Part shown: in pieces, positions 57,086 to 64,000 of the stretch
Layout: each line of letters opens with the position of its first letter
How positions within the stretch are numbered: the first letter of the stretch is position 1
From: Candidatus Thiodiazotropha sp. 'RUGA'
Lineage (GTDB): Bacteria; Pseudomonadota; Gammaproteobacteria; Chromatiales; Chromatiaceae
Assembly: GCA_016842065.1 (NCBI GenBank)
Contig: JAEPDS010000002.1
Location: 1-64,000, forward strand
Direction: 5' to 3'
DNA: 64,000 nucleotides
Position numbers and translations under genes: made by a program
The notes under the pieces: model-generated
What the model saw: only the letters and a program-made list of their open reading frames with translations
Databases searched by the model: none
What the model was told of the DNA's origin: nothing

Positions 57086-58033
57086 TTAAATCTCATTGGT
57101 GCCCAACCAGAAGCTCAGATTCTTGGCCAGAAACTCCTCAACCGGCATATAGTGCGAACCGTCACATGAGAATGTCAGACCGAGCATGCCGTTCATGATA
57201 TTCACCGATGCGCTGCGCAGATAGATGGTCTCATCGACAAATCGCAAGGCCTTGAACTCCTGCAACACATCACGCAACTGTTGAGGGGTCACCTTGGCCC
57301 GTTCAGGGTAGGGGTGCAGCGGATAGGCCAACACGATATCCGGATCGATGATCTCCTCGACACCATGAATATGGTAGCTGTAGGGGTCATCCATATCCCA
57401 GAATGAGCAGCGCCCGCTGGAGAAGTGGATCTTGCAATGGAAGATGCCATGCTCGGTCATCAGGTCGTAGACGGTTTCATGCACTGAATCGATGTGCTCA
57501 TCGAGCCGGCTCTGCACCCTCTGCTGCATGAAGAGTTGGCCACGAACCGCTGGATCCCCCTTGAACTGCTGCCACTGGGGCTGTCCTATACTGGCGTTCT
57601 CATCCGTGTTGAGCTTGTCGAGAGAGAAGTCCGCGGCGATGAAGCCAACCAGGTTTTTGTTCTGCCTTACCGCCTGCAGAGCGGTGACACACTCGCGATG
57701 TGAAAACTGGCTGTGGTAGACCGATGAGAGCATGACCCCTTTGAAGGGCAGATTGTTCTTCAGATAGGGGCGCTCGGAGAGGTCCCTGCCCCGCCAACTT
57801 TTATCCACCCCATCGGGCATAATCAGGGATGAGATCTCCAGACCTTCCAGGTCCCAGGCATAGAGAAATTCGCAATTGGTGATATCGCCAATATGCTCCA
57901 GCAGTACGCTGTCGAGTGCATCCGGATCCTGCCAGACCTGGGCACACTGTTTGGCCAATTCGGAGAGGGGCTCGCCGATCGCGCCGGCCAAGGCATCTTT
58001 TTTTGCCAGTATGATCTGTTTTACTGCGGACAT
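57086..58033 (-). CDS. PDC/Cache-like sensor domain protein without output domain
   Basis: About 315 aa from the ATG at 58033 (MSAVKQIILAKKDALAGAIG); a GTG five codons earlier is also possible. The first half resembles a PDC (double Cache) sensing domain: FLYAWDLEGLEISSLIMPDGVDKSWRGRDLSERPYLKNNL and GVMLSSVYHSQFSHRECVTALQAV. No transmembrane helix or signalling output domain is evident, so it is probably a cytoplasmic stand-alone sensor. It lies head-to-head with hemE. Confidence 0.6.
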   Translation of the reverse strand: MSAVKQIILAKKDALAGAIGEPLSELAKQCAQVWQDPDALDSVLLEHIGDITNCEFLYAWDLEGLEISSLIMPDGVDKSWRGRDLSERPYLKNNLPFKGVMLSSVYHSQFSHRECVTALQAVRQNKNLVGFIAADFSLDKLNTDENASIGQPQWQQFKGDPAVRGQLFMQQRVQSRLDEHIDSVHETVYDLMTEHGIFHCKIHFSSGRCSFWDMDDPYSYHIHGVEEIIDPDIVLAYPLHPYPERAKVTPQQLRDVLQEFKALRFVDETIYLRSASVNIMNGMLGLTFSCDGSHYMPVEEFLAKNLSFWLGTNEI

Positions 58034-58134
58034 AGGTTTGAGATTCACTCCTGGGCTGAACGCGATATACTTAGTTGCCGGGTTGGCCGGCTACCTCTTT
58101 ATACCAAAAAAATGTTGCTAAAGGATCTTAATCC

Positions 58135-59199
58135 GTGACCAGTTTAAAAAATGACCGTTTTCTTAGAGCCTTGGCGCGTGAGCCGGTGGATATGACCCCT
58201 GTGTGGATGATGCGCCAGGCAGGACGCTATCTGCCTGAATACCGGGCGACCCGTGCGAAAGCCGGGAGTTTCATGGATCTGTGTAAAAATCCGGAATTGG
58301 CCTGTGAGGTAACCCTGCAGCCTTTGGATCGCTATCCGCTGGATGCGGCGATCCTATTCTCCGACATTCTGACCGTTCCGGATGCGATGGGACTGGGCCT
58401 CTATTTCACCACCGGAGAGGGCCCCAGGTTTGAGCGCCCGGTAACCGACGAAGCGGCCGTTGAAGCACTCGGTCAGCCCGATATGGCGGAAGACCTGGGT
58501 TATGTGATGGATGCGGTGAGCACCATTCGGCGGGAGCTGGATGGTCGGGTACCCTTGATCGGCTTCAGTGGCAGTCCCTGGACACTGGCCACCTATATGG
58601 TCGAGGGTGGCGGCACCAAGAACTTCTCCAAAGTGAAAGGGATGATGTTCGACCGTCCGGAGCTGATGCATCGCCTGCTGGAGAAGGTCGCGACCGCGGT
58701 CACCGCCTATTTGAACGCTCAGATTGAAGCCGGCGCCCAGGCGTTGATGATCTTCGACACCTGGGGCGGAGCCCTCACCCCTCAGCACTATCAGAGCTTT
58801 TCCCTTGACTACATGGCGCGGATTCTGGATGGCCTGACCAAACAGGCGGATGGACGCAAGATTCCGACCATACTCTTTACCAAAGGGGGGGGTCTATGGC
58901 TGGAGAAGATGGCGGATACCGGCTGTGACGGGCTCGGTGTCGACTGGACTTTGAGTCTTGCGGATGCCAGAAGCCGGGTGGGAGATCGGGTCGCACTGCA
59001 GGGAAATCTGGACCCTTGTACCCTCTACGCCTCACCGGAGCGGATTCGTGACGAGGTGGCGAAGGTGCTCGCCAGCTATGGAAAAGGCAGTGGCCATATC
59101 TTCAATCTGGGGCATGGTATCCACCCTGAAATCGATCCTGAACATGCCGGTGTGTTTGTCGATGCGGTTCATGAATTGAGTCGCCCCTACCATCAGTAG
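58135..59199 (+). CDS. hemE: Uroporphyrinogen decarboxylase
   Basis: Converts uroporphyrinogen III to coproporphyrinogen III in heme synthesis. 354 aa with a GTG start at 58135. Family signature [23 protein letters not shown] at about residue 25, then [19 protein letters not shown], and [13 protein letters not shown]-terminal HGIHPEID is present. Confidence 0.97.
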
Positions 59200-59212
59200 A
59201 GCCATAAAAATT

Positions 59213-60100
59213 ATGAAAGTAACCCTGCTAGGACTTGGATTGATGGGGCTGCCGGTTGCCCATCGCTTGATTCAACGTGGTCATGAGGTGAAAGCCTGGA
59301 ACCGATCAGAATCACGTCTGCAGGCGGCGCAGGCTGAAGGCATAGCCGTGACAGGGGATCTGATCGATGCGGTCAGCGATAGCGAGGTCATCCTGCTGAC
59401 ACTGAGTGATGCGGAGGCGATCGAGTCGGTGCTGTTCAGCGATGAGGTCGTGAGCCGACTTGGCGGTAAGACGGTGTTGCAGATGGGCACCATCTCGCCC
59501 GATCAAAGTCGAGAACTCGCTGATCGGGTGCAACAGTCAGGTGGTGACTATCTGGAGGTGCCGGTTCTCGGCAGTATTCCAGAGGCGTTGAGTGGTGAAT
59601 TGATCGTCATGGCCGGCGGTTCCGAAGAGGTCTACCACCACTGTCTGTTGTTGCTGCGAGGACTGGGTAAGGAGGTCGACCTGGTTGGTGGAGTCGGTCA
59701 GGCAGCGGCAATGAAACTGGCGATGAATCAACTGATCGCTGCACTGACGGTTGGATTCGCCCAGAGCCTGGGATTGATCCGGGCGGAGGGTGTCGAGGTC
59801 GAACATTTCATGAAGTTACTGCGTGAAAGCGCACTCTATGCACCGACCTTCGATAAAAAGCTGCAGAAGTATCTCGAACACGACTACACCAAAGCCAACT
59901 TTCCCCTCAAGCATCTGATCAAGGATATCGGACTGTTTAAACAGGTGGCTGAATCATCCGGTATGAACGGTGAAGTGGCCGATGCCACACTGAGTATTTT
60001 GAACAGTGGTCAACAAGCGGGATACGGTGATGAAGACTATTCAGCTCTGTATGAAGCGATCAATCCGGGTTTCGATGCGGAAACCGATATCGGTTGTTAG
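59213..60100 (+). CDS. NAD(P)-dependent beta-hydroxyacid dehydrogenase family protein
   Basis: 295 aa, 3-hydroxyisobutyrate/6-phosphogluconate dehydrogenase superfamily. The Rossmann motif is LLGLGLMGLPVAHRLIQRGHEV, followed by VLQMGTISPDQSRELAD and the catalytic lysine block GQAAAMKLAMNQLIAALTVGFAQSLG. Substrate unknown (glyoxylate or succinic semialdehyde reductase are options). The stop codon TAG coincides with the first bases of a GGGCCTG word like the MITE left end. Confidence 0.85.
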   Translation: MKVTLLGLGLMGLPVAHRLIQRGHEVKAWNRSESRLQAAQAEGIAVTGDLIDAVSDSEVILLTLSDAEAIESVLFSDEVVSRLGGKTVLQMGTISPDQSRELADRVQQSGGDYLEVPVLGSIPEALSGELIVMAGGSEEVYHHCLLLLRGLGKEVDLVGGVGQAAAMKLAMNQLIAALTVGFAQSLGLIRAEGVEVEHFMKLLRESALYAPTFDKKLQKYLEHDYTKANFPLKHLIKDIGLFKQVAESSGMNGEVADATLSILNSGQQAGYGDEDYSALYEAINPGFDAETDIGC

Positions 60101-60108
60101 GGCCTGAC

Positions 60109-60152
60109 ATAAAGCGGCGGGATAGTCTTGCGATGCAGCCGCTTTTTTGTTT
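60109..60152 (+). terminator. Intrinsic terminator after the dehydrogenase gene
   Basis: AAAGCGGC ... GCCGCTTTTTTG: a GC-rich stem (GCGGC with GCCGC) with about 21 nt between, followed by six T residues. It is just after the dehydrogenase stop. Confidence 0.75.
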
Positions 60153-60381
60153 GCTCCGGCGATTTAACTGACCGTTGTTAAATCAAAAAAGCAGAATCGC
60201 TTCAGATGTGAATTTACCAATCAGGTCTGGTTTGGATGGAAGCTTTTCTCTGTTACAACCGGCTACTCTTTCGCCCTTCACCCGAAGAACTATTAACATG
60301 ACAGACTGAGTCGCCGGGTTAATAATAAAACCCCATTTAATGCAAATTGTTGTTTGCCGGCTTGACAGGCATTACCATCTA

Positions 60382-60435
60382 GGATCTGTTAACACCAATC
60401 CGGATCGTGTGATTGGTGGTTGTGTTAACAGGCCC
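60382..60435. mobile_element. Minimal 54-bp MITE copy (terminal repeats only), TA-flanked
   Basis: Left end GGATCTGTTAACACCAATCC and right end GGTTGTGTTAACAGGCCC face each other with only about 16 nt between, and TA dinucleotides lie directly outside both ends (60380-60381 and 60436-60437). It can fold almost end to end. It lies in the 420-bp gap before the hybrid kinase gene. Confidence 0.75.
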
Positions 60436-60520
60436 TAACCGAAACTGAAGCATTTATCTGACTGACGGTTGGCAGGTAATCGAAAACAAGAAGTAGATTT
60501 AAACCATGGACTAAAGATAG

Positions 60521-62416
60521 ATGGAACTTACACTTCAACGGAAGATGAATACCAAGCTCGATCTGGAATTAGCCAAGGAATCCTACAAGCTTGCAACAAA
60601 AGCCAGTATCGGCAGTTTCGCGACGTTTGCCGCCATCATCTATTTTTTCTGGGGCCTGGTTCCAACCCCTCTACTGACGGCCTGGGTCTTTATCAATATT
60701 GTCTGTTCTGCATCGGTGTTCTTCGTTGCCCGTCAGTTTGAAAAACGAGTCAATCTGAATAATGCGAACAGATGGCTGCGCATATACAGCCTGTTGGTGT
60801 TGGTCAGCGTTGTACCCTGGGGCTTTATCGGTCCGATCGGTTTCATGATCGAGGATGAGACCTATCATATGTTGACCCTGTTCATACTGGGCGGTGTGAC
60901 TGCGGGTGGCATCATTACCCGTGCAGTAATATTCAAGAACTATGTGCTGACCCTTTTTTCCCTATTGACCCCAACCCTGATAACCCTGCTGATGCAGGCA
61001 ACCGTTCTCGCTGAAACCGTATTGATCCTGATATTGATCTACATGGTGTTCATGCTGTGGGTTGCTAAAAGTTACAGTCGTAACGTCAAACACAACATCC
61101 AGTTATGGCTGGATAATGAAAAGCTGTTGGGAGAGGTAAGGGATTCTCATGCTGAAATTGCAAAAAAGAATCTGGAGCTGACCCATGAGATCGAACAGGG
61201 TAAAAAGATTGAAAGCCAACTGATTGAAGCCAAGGAGAGATCTGAGCGGGCGAGTGAAGCAAAGAACCAGTTTCTGGCCAATGTCAGTCATGAACTTCGT
61301 ACACCGTTAAACGGTATTATGGGATTTACCGAGTTGTTGCAGGAAGAGCATCTGGAGCAGAAGCATAATCAGTATGTTTCACAGATCGGTAAAGCCGCAA
61401 AAAGTCTGTTGCATATCGTGAATGACATTCTGGATATAACCTCGATCGAGTCCGGCCAGATCAGTTTGAATGAAGAATCCTTCACACTGCGTACGGAAAT
61501 GGAAGAGGTTCTCGCCATCATGGGCCCGATTGCCGAGCGTAAGAATCTGCTTCTCAAGCTGTTTATCGATAAGCAGCTTCATAACAGGTTGTATGGGGAT
61601 GCCAACCGATTGCGTCAGATTGTCAGCAATCTGCTTTCCAACGCGATTAAGTATACTGAGTCGGGTTATGTCAGTTTGACGATAAAACTGTTGAACTCAA
61701 ACGGTAAAAAAGTATTGCTTAGATTCGAAGTCGAGGATACGGGAATCGGCATTGCTGAGGCTGAATTAAGCACCATTTTCGATAATTTTACCCGGGTGGA
61801 AAACTTTGAAACCCGTAAAACGGAAGGTGCCGGACTGGGCCTGGCGATCGTTAAGAGTCTGGTGGAAAAAATGGATGGTGTACTGGATGTCAGCAGCAGT
61901 TTGAGCGAAGGCTCCTGTTTCAGTCTGGAACTGCCGCTGAGAGTCTGTAGCAAGGATGATCTCTGTTCGCAGCCGCCAAGAGCGGCCACGGTCACGCAAC
62001 AACAGCGACAAAACTTTCATGTTCTGGTTGTCGATGATAACGAAATCAATCGCATGTTGCTTTGTGCATTTCTTGCCAAGCTGGGTAATCCCTATGCGGT
62101 CGCCAGCAATGGCTATGAAGCCTTGGCACAAATACGCAACAACCGCTTTGATGTTGTGTTGATGGATATTCAAATGCCCGATATCAGTGGCATGGATGTG
62201 GCCAGCCGGCTACGCGCGGAAAGTCGAGCAATACCAATTCTGATTGCAACCACAGCACACGCTTTTCCTGAACAGCATCAAACAATTCTCGATGCCGGTT
62301 TTTCTGACCTGTTGACAAAACCGGTTGGCATGGAGGAGTTGGAAAGGACACTGACCCAGGCTTTCAGTGGCGGTTACACAGAAAACAACAGAGTCGCCAA
62401 TACCATGTTGATGTAA
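60521..62416 (+). CDS. Hybrid sensor histidine kinase / response regulator
   Basis: 631 aa. Six or so hydrophobic helices between residues 25 and 190 form an integral membrane input. A coiled-coil linker leads to the HisKA domain with His257 (FLANVSHELRTPLNGIMGFTELL), the HATPase domain (IVSNLLSNAIKYT, DTGIGIAEAELS, GAGLGLAIVKSL), and a C-terminal receiver with Asp549 (VVLMDIQMPDISG). No output domain; phosphate would go to a separate partner. No cognate regulator is next door. The signal is not known. Confidence 0.93.
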   Translation: MELTLQRKMNTKLDLELAKESYKLATKASIGSFATFAAIIYFFWGLVPTPLLTAWVFINIVCSASVFFVARQFEKRVNLNNANRWLRIYSLLVLVSVVPWGFIGPIGFMIEDETYHMLTLFILGGVTAGGIITRAVIFKNYVLTLFSLLTPTLITLLMQATVLAETVLILILIYMVFMLWVAKSYSRNVKHNIQLWLDNEKLLGEVRDSHAEIAKKNLELTHEIEQGKKIESQLIEAKERSERASEAKNQFLANVSHELRTPLNGIMGFTELLQEEHLEQKHNQYVSQIGKAAKSLLHIVNDILDITSIESGQISLNEESFTLRTEMEEVLAIMGPIAERKNLLLKLFIDKQLHNRLYGDANRLRQIVSNLLSNAIKYTESGYVSLTIKLLNSNGKKVLLRFEVEDTGIGIAEAELSTIFDNFTRVENFETRKTEGAGLGLAIVKSLVEKMDGVLDVSSSLSEGSCFSLELPLRVCSKDDLCSQPPRAATVTQQQRQNFHVLVVDDNEINRMLLCAFLAKLGNPYAVASNGYEALAQIRNNRFDVVLMDIQMPDISGMDVASRLRAESRAIPILIATTAHAFPEQHQTILDAGFSDLLTKPVGMEELERTLTQAFSGGYTENNRVANTMLM

Positions 62417-62453
62417 TTAACATGGGTAAGCCCCCAGCTGTGCCAGGTAGACC

Positions 62454-62483
62454 AGGGCCAATTGGATTCGTGTTAAAAGGCCC
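62454..62483. mobile_element. MITE right-end fragment
   Basis: CAATTGGATTCGTGTTAAAA then GGCCC, followed by TA, matches the right end of the element at 63364-63628 with a few substitutions. No left end is nearby. It lies just after the hybrid kinase gene. Confidence 0.6.
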
Positions 62484-62530
62484 TAGCACAGGTTTTTCAG
62501 TGACTGCGCGCTGAGCAGTTCTCTGGCTAT

Positions 62531-62625
62531 TCTTTATGACCACGAAGGACACGAAGCGCACGAAGATTGGCCTTTCTAAGGCGTAGAGTTGGATGCTCCC
62601 TTCGTGTTCTTCGTGGTAATAAACG
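62531..62625. repeat. CTTCGTG-type inverted repeat
   Basis: TTTATGACCACGAAGGACAC then GAAGCGCACGAAG is mirrored by CCCTTCGTGTTCTTCGTGGT then AATAAA. The arms are about 24 nt with about 40 nt between. It resembles ACCACGAAGGACACGAAG repeats seen in several proteobacteria and has the same layout as the ACCGC-family copies. Confidence 0.7.
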
Positions 62626-62689
62626 ACAAAGTTTGTGATTCTGTACAGTATGATTTGACTAAAATATTTGAATTCGCATTATTATTTGC

Positions 62690-62731
62690 TTGATTCATAT
62701 CAAGTTTGTCATTTCCACCATCCTCTATGAT
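62690..62731 (+). promoter_or_regulatory. FNR/Anr-type class II promoter of the hemerythrin gene
   Basis: TTGATTCATATCAA (62690-62703) is a perfect FNR consensus (TTGAT-N4-ATCAA). A -10 hexamer TATGAT (62726-62731) sits downstream so that a start at about 62738 would place the FNR site at -41.5, the standard class II position. The gene start follows at 62765. Confidence 0.8.
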
Positions 62732-62764
62732 GCGCAGTTTACTGCTACAGATCTTTGGTGCGTC

Positions 62765-63202
62765 ATGAGCAAATATCAGCTACCCATCGTAGCCAGTGAC
62801 CAGATACCGCTTGTTGAACTGGAAGTGATGAATCAGGTGCATCGGGAAGAGGTTGAAATGATCAATCAGTTGGGCGCGCTGTTGATCGACGGATTACAGG
62901 GAAAGCCCGAAATAGAGAAGATCAGTCACACGGTTAAGGCCTGGATCGATCACACCCGGGAACATTTTGAGGGTGAGAACAAAATGATGATGGAGTATGG
63001 TTTCCCACCCTATCCGGTGCATAAGGGCGAGCATGATCAGGTGTTGCTGCGCCTTGAATCGCTTCAGGCTGAATGGCTAAAGGAGTTCAATCTGGAGCTG
63101 CTGGCCGACTTCATCTTCATCGAATGGCGCGACTGGTTTGATACTCATGTCAATAGCATGGACATGGTTACGGCCCAGTTCTTAGATCGGTTTATTCGTT
63201 AG
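62765..63202 (+). CDS. Bacteriohemerythrin
   Basis: 145-aa four-helix diiron O2-binding protein from the ATG at 62765; the frame extends 25 codons upstream into the promoter. Probable iron ligands: HREEVEMINQ near the start, TREHFEGENKMM (His, Glu), HKGEHDQVL (His, His) and DTHVNSMD (His, Asp). It is predicted to be under oxygen control (see promoter). Such proteins carry or sense O2, often in microaerobic bacteria. Confidence 0.87.
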   Translation: MSKYQLPIVASDQIPLVELEVMNQVHREEVEMINQLGALLIDGLQGKPEIEKISHTVKAWIDHTREHFEGENKMMMEYGFPPYPVHKGEHDQVLLRLESLQAEWLKEFNLELLADFIFIEWRDWFDTHVNSMDMVTAQFLDRFIR

Positions 63203-63248
63203 AGGGAAACTGGAAAAGACGCGCTGAGCAGACTATTGGTATTTTGCT

Positions 63249-63276
63249 GGGCGGGGCCAATCACTGGCCACCGCCC
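63249..63276. terminator. Hairpin between hemerythrin and the small minus-strand ORF
   Basis: GGGCGG-GGCCA-ATCAC-TGGCC-A-CCGCCC forms an 11-bp stem with one bulge, placed between two converging genes. There is no strong T-run, so it may be a bidirectional pause or weak terminator. Confidence 0.5.
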
Positions 63277-63286
63277 TATTCTGCAG

Positions 63287-63634
63287 TTAGCCAATCATTA
63301 CTGAGATGATGATGCCCAGCACCAGGATTGCTAATGCGCCGACTATTGCTTTATCACTACCTAGGGCCTGTTAACACTAATCCAATTGCCCCTGCTGGGT
63401 CTATTTTTTCGTCCAGCAAGGCAGAATGAGCGACGTGTAGTTGTTCTACATGAGCGAATGATAACGCCGCTGGGCGGAAAAATAGACCCAGCCCTCCGGG
63501 TTGCGCCTGAAAAAGCGCCACTCGGCGTTGCTCGTCGTTCATTTGGAATCACCAAACCTCACTCCTCGCGCCTTGATTGGCGCTTTTTCAGGCACAACAG
63601 GGCCAATTGGATTAGTGTTAACAGGCCCTAACAT
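63287..63634 (-). pseudogene. 26-residue membrane-peptide gene interrupted by a MITE
   Basis: On the minus strand, GGAGGA then an ATG at 63634 begins MLG, and the 265-bp element follows at once. On the far side (63363 down to 63287) the frame continues GSDKAIVGALAILVLG then IIISVMIG and a TAA. Removing the element and one TA joins the ATG to this frame exactly, giving a 26-aa peptide with a short charged start (GSDK) and one long hydrophobic helix. As it stands translation would read into the element and stop after about 31 codons. Function unknown; such mini membrane proteins often accompany larger complexes. Confidence 0.75.
63364..63628. mobile_element. 265-bp MITE-like element with 25-bp terminal inverted repeats and TA duplication
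   Basis: Both ends begin GGGCCTGTTAACACTAATCC then AATTG when read inward, 25 nt perfectly matched. TA flanks each side (62-63 and 29-30). Inside are two further inverted pairs: CTGGGTCTATTTTTTCG with its complement near 63470, and TTGCGCCTGAAAAAGCGCC with GGCGCTTTTTCAGGCACAA. No ORF that could encode a transposase. The TA target and small size suggest mobilisation by an IS630/Tc1-mariner type enzyme encoded elsewhere. Confidence 0.85.
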
Positions 63635-64000
63635 GGTTTGTCCTCCAAAGTTGACTTGACCAAAAGCTCCACAAAAGATTAGACATCAGCAATTGTGTCT
63701 TTTCACGGGAGACAAGCAATAACATTGCGGAGACTAGGGTAATTGCAGGCTGCTCCATTTCAACTGATTTAAGTCAATGAACTGCAAGGTTTTAATCCGT
63801 TTTGCACGGAATGTGACCAGATATTGACTGAATCTGATGGCGATCCTGATCACTCCTGTGCCGCAAAGTGTGTTGGGCTGGTGCAGATCGTTTCGCGGGG
63901 GTGATACGCCCCGAAGCTCCCTATCGGGCCGGGTTTCATGGTACAAATAGCTCAAATACTCTTTATCCTGATGCAGCGGCAAAAACAATAACAGATCAGG
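63635..64000. other. Gene-free end of the window with one FNR-like site
   Basis: No supported gene. Reading on the minus strand, TTGACTTAAATCAG (63777-63764) resembles an FNR site with two mismatches, and TACCCT lies at the -10 distance, upstream of the broken small gene. A minus-strand frame at 63734-63988 has no recognisable features. Confidence 0.4.

Follow-up and report, generated by a model that had tools for sequence, protein, structure and literature searches.

Genes of 26 codons normally lie below annotation limits, and the locus described here raises the question of whether a mobile element has landed in one of them and, by breaking it, brought it to notice. The window, a stretch of 64,000 nucleotides from Candidatus Thiodiazotropha sp. 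'RUGA' (the source genome, G000), contains near its end a 265-bp element placed directly behind an ATG with a strong Shine-Dalgarno (SD) sequence. The original prediction held that deletion of this element together with one copy of a flanking TA restores an unbroken 26-codon open reading frame (ORF), and that this deletion proves the element's borders, gives its target duplication and reveals an otherwise invisible gene for a small membrane peptide. The features of the locus are listed in Table 1.

Table 1. Features at and around the interrupted small gene (window coordinates)
Feature	Coordinates	Strand	Basis or remark
GC-rich 3' hairpin downstream of the small gene, terminator-like, with no clear T tract (by eye)	63249..63277	-	
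Hemerythrin-domain protein, convergent neighbour	62690..63202	+	Present in 17/20 loci compared
Remainder of the interrupted small gene downstream of the element (codons 3-26 with the TAA stop)	63287..63361	-	Residues 3-26 identical to G002, G008 and G016
TA target duplication, distal copy	63362..63363	.	Empty-site alignment and flanks of other copies
MITE-like element, 265 bp, GGGCC...GGCCC, without a transposase-sized ORF	63364..63628	.	Inverted repeats, copies, fold
TA target duplication, proximal copy	63629..63630	.	Empty-site alignment and flanks of other copies
Broken small gene: ATG start (63634-63632) and first base of codon 2 (T 63631)	63631..63634	-	
Shine-Dalgarno GGAGG	63642..63646	-	Common to the 19 aligned orthologues except G001 (GAAGG)
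Near-palindrome GCAATGTTATTGC at the predicted transcription start	63716..63728	-	Mean identity 0.91 over 13 columns
Predicted -10 hexamer TACCCT	63736..63741	-	TACCCT in 17/19 loci having the box
FNR-type box TTGACTTAAATCAG, 22 nt upstream of the -10, centre about -41.5	63764..63777	-	

Reconstruction of the locus before insertion

When the two flanks in G000 were joined with one TA, a 26-codon ORF (MLGSDKAIVGALAILVLGIIISVMIG) followed by a stop codon was obtained; the predicted coordinates and pre-insertion sequence were thus correct to the base. The restored open frame is by itself a weak proof, since 38% of random 25-codon stretches from positions 58001-64000 are equally stop-free. The deletion alone therefore does not prove the borders, as had been claimed; the borders and the TA duplication are borne out by related genomes and by the flanks of other copies of the element, and it is on these, and not on the restored frame alone, that the reality of the gene rests. 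As the sequence now stands, the ATG of the broken gene starts a frame of 31 codons that runs into the element and then meets a stop. Upstream of the codons that remain, the same frame is closed after three codons by a TAA inside the element, and no start codon lies in this interval. Because translation is diverted into the element, the 26-aa peptide cannot be made in G000.

The intact gene and the empty site in related genomes

A query with the hemerythrin-domain neighbour retrieved loci in Candidatus Thiodiazotropha taylori, the Stewartia floridana symbiont and Ca. T. endoloripes, as well as a distant Bacteriovorax protein (32%); by these matches the host groups with Candidatus Thiodiazotropha, clam symbionts. 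The 23 residues encoded after the element were searched against 93 genomes, G000 included. At E < 0.001, G000 itself and 19 of the other 21 genomes of the genus gave matches, G014 and G017 gave none, and the single match outside the genus had an E value of 2.5. The whole 26-codon ORF, from ATG to stop, is present and free of the element in 18 of the 21 other species of the genus, close relatives among them, and the hidden gene of the original prediction is thereby real. An identical 26-aa peptide is encoded behind the same GGAGG in G002, G008 and G016, and one that differs by a single residue in G009 and G012.

Aligned with the 19 relative sites that could be read, the G000 flanks, once joined, showed no gap at the joint; none of the 19 carries the element at the orthologous site, and the empty sites contain one TA. 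All five nearest relatives (84-94% identity over the region) have the ORF. The alignment to the nearest, G008 (93.7% over 18.4 kb), falls into three blocks; one of the breaks is the element, and at the other some 10 bases in G000 stand opposite about 110 in G008. As G000 is a draft assembly of 177 contigs, several of which end inside the element repeat, the insertion might be suspected to stem from misassembly or to represent a minority allele. A false join between two repeat copies would, however, not yield flanks that are both collinear with one relative site, together with a precise TA duplication, although a minority allele could; taken as a whole, we regard this explanation as very unlikely.

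The surroundings of the ORF are also shared. The same 229-aa gene lies beside it in all 20 loci compared (G000 and 19 relatives), and in 17 of these (16 of the 19 relatives) the ORF is situated between this gene and the convergent hemerythrin-domain gene; a different gene occupies the place of the latter in G005, G013 and G018. The 229-aa gene (L061:9177-9866) begins 176 bases past the end of the window and had no Pfam or NCBIfam match. A 1284-aa FAD-oxidase/iron-sulfur protein with DUF3683 and DUF3400 domains is encoded at L061:14654-18508, beside PEP carboxylase.

The 265-bp element and its copies

The termini of the element form a 41-nt inverted repeat that is 90% complementary (arms counted with the TA), and its interior contains two 24-nt inverted repeats. 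Folded as single-stranded DNA, it assumes the shape of a Y with two internal hairpins, at -89.8 kcal/mol compared to a shuffle mean of -38.7 (z = -14.6, 200 shuffles). The longest ORF that overlaps it encodes 81 aa (63386-63631, plus strand) and extends past the element's end. With up to two mismatches allowed, 179 such termini (87 forward and 92 reverse) were counted in G000, against 0 for a reversed control; G002, G004, G015 and G016 have 98-141 each at no more than one mismatch. A search for copies gave at least 100 matching pieces in G000, cross-matches of inverted ends included. Thirty element loci were kept, six of which had no two-ended copy and were left out; the two-ended copies in the other 24 span 255-285 bp, are flanked by TA on both sides in 22 cases, and in all 22 of these the target reads Y-TA-R. 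Inverted repeats, dispersed copies, a short TA duplication and the lack of a transposase of its own make the element a MITE by structure.

The original prediction had named it as such, and on the structural side this stands; a parent transposase was not found. Among the matches listed for G002, facing ends were 50-570 bp apart, and in the search for an autonomous parent none were seen at 0.6-3 kb (both judged by eye). No DUF4096 transposase was matched in G000, and none of nine DDE_Tnp_1 loci, located in four of the five genus genomes searched, had a pair of matching ends, one of them showing a single-sided match to the element end with two mismatches. Derivation from the IS5 family was not supported, no parent transposase with matching ends having been found in these searches (DUF4096 in G000, DDE_Tnp_1 in five genomes). 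The autonomous parent may be extinct. Since no autonomous element was found, the case for mobility is made by the copies and the empty sites. The insertion looks recent, because the most similar other copy among the matches listed is 99% identical and the cut-off codons in G000 still specify the exact residues of the relatives.

Two further repeats in the window were noted by eye: a degenerate stretch resembling an element end (GGGCCAATTGGATTCGTGTTAAAAGGCCCTAG, 62455-62486), located just past a histidine kinase gene and probably a relic of this family of repeats, and another inverted repeat at 62539-62618, of the type ACCACGAAGGACACGAAG / CTTCGTG...TTCGTGGT.

Selection, second copies and losses

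Across the 171 pairs that 19 sequences form, which are not independent of each other, the pooled pN/pS was 0.28 (pS 0.458, pN 0.129). This excess of synonymous change shows that the small ORF is under purifying selection. In ten of the 21 other species the gene has a diverged second copy, likewise of 26 codons, at a distance of 0.85-2.1 kb (L067, L068, L069, L074, L075, L076, L077, L078, L079 and L080). Second copies were left out of the pooled value, and eight of them taken separately gave a pS of 0.396 and a pN of 0.194. In G000 there was a single match only, and no second copy was found. All 18 intact copies and all ten second copies read have 26 codons and a purine-rich SD sequence.

One could also suppose that the unit conserved here acts as a regulatory RNA, in which the short ORF is incidental. 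The unit has its own promoter, described below, and in some relatives pairs of the 3' hairpin are changed on both sides, as an RNA would predict; in others they are broken. Against an RNA, change is concentrated at synonymous sites, and the length of 26 codons and the purine-rich SD are kept throughout the intact and second copies. We hold a regulatory RNA to be quite unlikely, and a protein-coding gene is the reading followed here.

The original prediction expected relatives without the element to carry the ORF, an expectation from which three of the 21 depart. In G011, which is 71% identical over the region, CTG replaces ATG and the promoter box is missing. The sequence of G014 tracks that of G005 at 93% identity but departs from it shortly ahead of the promoter box, and the remaining 90 nt or so, as far as the contig end, no longer match; loss of the gene is likely here, in a sequence that ends at the contig edge. 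G017 has a 63-nt remnant at 73%; two anchor genes lie near each other there, and inspection of the ORFs by eye showed neither a hemerythrin gene nor the small ORF in the interval. We infer that these were separate losses, as G011 is so distant, while the five nearest relatives all have the ORF. G001 retains the ORF with a weakened SD and, compared to G003, shows six non-synonymous and no synonymous changes. Given this last pattern and the three species with no intact copy, the gene is, on these comparisons, conserved but dispensable and not essential.

An FNR-type promoter with fixed layout

Upstream of the ORF, a box of the form TTGA-N6-TCA(G/C) is found exactly 22 nt before the -10 hexamer in 19 of the 20 loci, G011 being the exception; where the hexamer departs from TACCCT it reads TACCTT (G001) or TGCTCT (G007). 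Over the 19 loci (G011 left out), mean column identity was 0.54 before the box, 1.00 in TTGA, 0.63 in N6, 0.96 in TCAG, 0.62 in the gap, 0.97 in the hexamer and 0.91 in the near-palindrome, falling to 0.45 over the 60 columns that follow. In 1000 shuffles, which preserve base composition only and are compared with loci that share descent, the box turned up in 0.13 of the 20 regions on average and never in more than 3.

The consensus for FNR is TTGAT-N4-ATCAA, and the boxes agree with it at 7-9 of 10 positions. Scored singly against the full consensus, several upstream regions were no better than shuffles (p of 0.157 for G000, 0.730 for G009, 0.763 for G012 and 0.717 for G016). The centre of the box, at about -41.5, falls at the class II FNR position, and this layout is present in 19 of 20 loci, with the start site being predicted. 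G000 encodes an FNR protein (NF008365, 281.8 bits compared to an NCBIfam cut-off of 228) and a second FNR-like protein below the cut-off (166 bits). As there are 11 CRP/FNR-type helix-turn-helix matches in G000, the regulator could be another member of the CRP/FNR family. The near-palindrome is largely kept in the relatives and inexact in some; it could be a second operator. None of eight second copies scored has a box at the same spacing, and those of G015 and G021 have a 9-of-10 FNR site about 192 nt upstream. These features suggest that the small gene would be induced at low oxygen via FNR, as a one-gene transcript.

The peptide and its possible role

The peptide has a mean hydropathy of 2.98 over 19 residues. 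Four peptides gave Pfam matches, none of which reached the cut-off; three peptides had no NCBIfam match, and the PDB gave none; Rfam gave one chance-level hit and nothing relevant. An alignment of 15 chosen rows (A1) was used for a wider search, which matched 12 of 194 sampled genomes of the family, 11 from the genus (G000 included) and one, G110, from another genus, and two of 369 sampled genomes of the class, both from this genus. The match in G110 (E 0.001 per genome, with about 0.2 expected over the 194-genome set) is a stand-alone 26-codon ORF, MFDGEGAIMGAAVLLILGVVVSALIG, at L099:1501-1578 on the minus strand, and is a possible remote homologue of 26 residues. No FNR-type box was seen there by eye, and the adjoining ORF resembles, by sight, a spermidine synthase.

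Its size and one hydrophobic stretch, the two copies 0.85-2.1 kb apart in some species and the losses in others are also what might be seen with a small hydrophobic type I toxin acting on its own membrane and silenced here by the element. The class II FNR layout and the chromosomal place are, however, fixed across the genus and change is mostly synonymous; moreover, no match to the peptide was found in phages, and PHROGs returned a single one (E 0.69) for 15 members. For an antisense RNA, Rfam offered just the chance-level hit mentioned above. A toxin is therefore considered unlikely, and we return to a peptide with a proposed function under low oxygen.

CydX and CydH/YnhF are FNR-regulated small membrane proteins of similar length and hydrophobicity, and the FNR-type promoter would likewise suit a subunit of cytochrome bd oxidase of their kind. 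CydA exceeded the Pfam cut-off in 9 of 22 genus genomes, with over 400 bits only in G012 and G021 and partial matches of 41-87 bits in the other seven. However, 10 of the 18 species with an intact ORF had no CydA match (E 0.001), and among the genomes with the peptide and no CydA match are G004 and G015, each of them one contig; this leaves a cytochrome bd subunit with hardly any probability. A partial match to cytochrome bd subunit I (81-87 bits) was observed in frames of 637-648 codons, L110 (G010:C1:231607-232371) and similar ORFs in G001, G003, G007, G011 and G013. All 22 genus genomes matched CcoN, 21 of them above the cut-off and G009 with a fragmented match. Genomes with no peptide are among them, and this distribution speaks neither for nor against the cbb3 oxidase; no phyletic partner was found with CydA and CcoN across the genus genomes.

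According to the accessible part of PMC6872982, Ca. T. endoloripes encodes and expresses aa3 and cbb3 oxidases, a lifestyle that low-oxygen regulation would fit. We suggest that the peptide is a single-pass membrane helix, probably a dispensable accessory of a membrane process at low oxygen.

Discussion

Taken together, these results indicate, with a probability that we put at nearly 0.9, that a MITE-like transposon, 265 bp long and non-autonomous, has inserted, apparently recently, in codon 2 of a real short gene of Candidatus Thiodiazotropha. The element entered a TTAG target and duplicated its TA. Start codon, SD and FNR-type promoter are all still there, but translation enters the element and ends after 31 codons; in the relatives, the intact peptide would be produced when oxygen is low and would span the membrane as a single helix.

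The insertion has exposed a gene of a size that annotation normally misses, which the comparison (18 of 21 species, the synonymous change and the fixed promoter) then made credible. It adds a concrete family of small proteins to a symbiont genus that is already much studied, with natural losses available for comparison, and gives base-exact ends, a target and a duplication for an abundant repeat family of this genus. In the accessible parts of the literature on Thiodiazotropha we found neither a description of a 26-aa peptide nor a link to the term 'miniature inverted-repeat'. A wider scenario, which we offer tentatively and at somewhat less than even odds, is that the genus has its own family of FNR-controlled 26-residue membrane micro-proteins, which tune a membrane complex active at low oxygen, whether in the clam or in the sediment; some lineages would have duplicated the gene, and repeated losses would have removed it from others. 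G000 would then be a natural transposon knockout of such a micro-protein.

Among known systems, IS5-type insertion sequences have a YTAR target and are in this like the element; they differ in that the element duplicates TA only and that none of the nine DDE_Tnp_1 loci inspected has its paired ends, nor did DUF4096 match in G000. With bacterial MITEs the element shares its shortness, long terminal inverted repeats, absence of a transposase gene, many copies and short target duplication, and it departs from them in having no parent IS found and in its Y-shaped fold with two internal hairpins. The MITEs of P. syringae are one example of this class, as presented in the accessible part of PMC3189936. 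The peptide differs from the CydX and CydH/YnhF class in having no family match above cut-off and no co-occurrence with cytochrome bd, and resembles it in its very short length, its single hydrophobic stretch and a promoter of the low-oxygen type.
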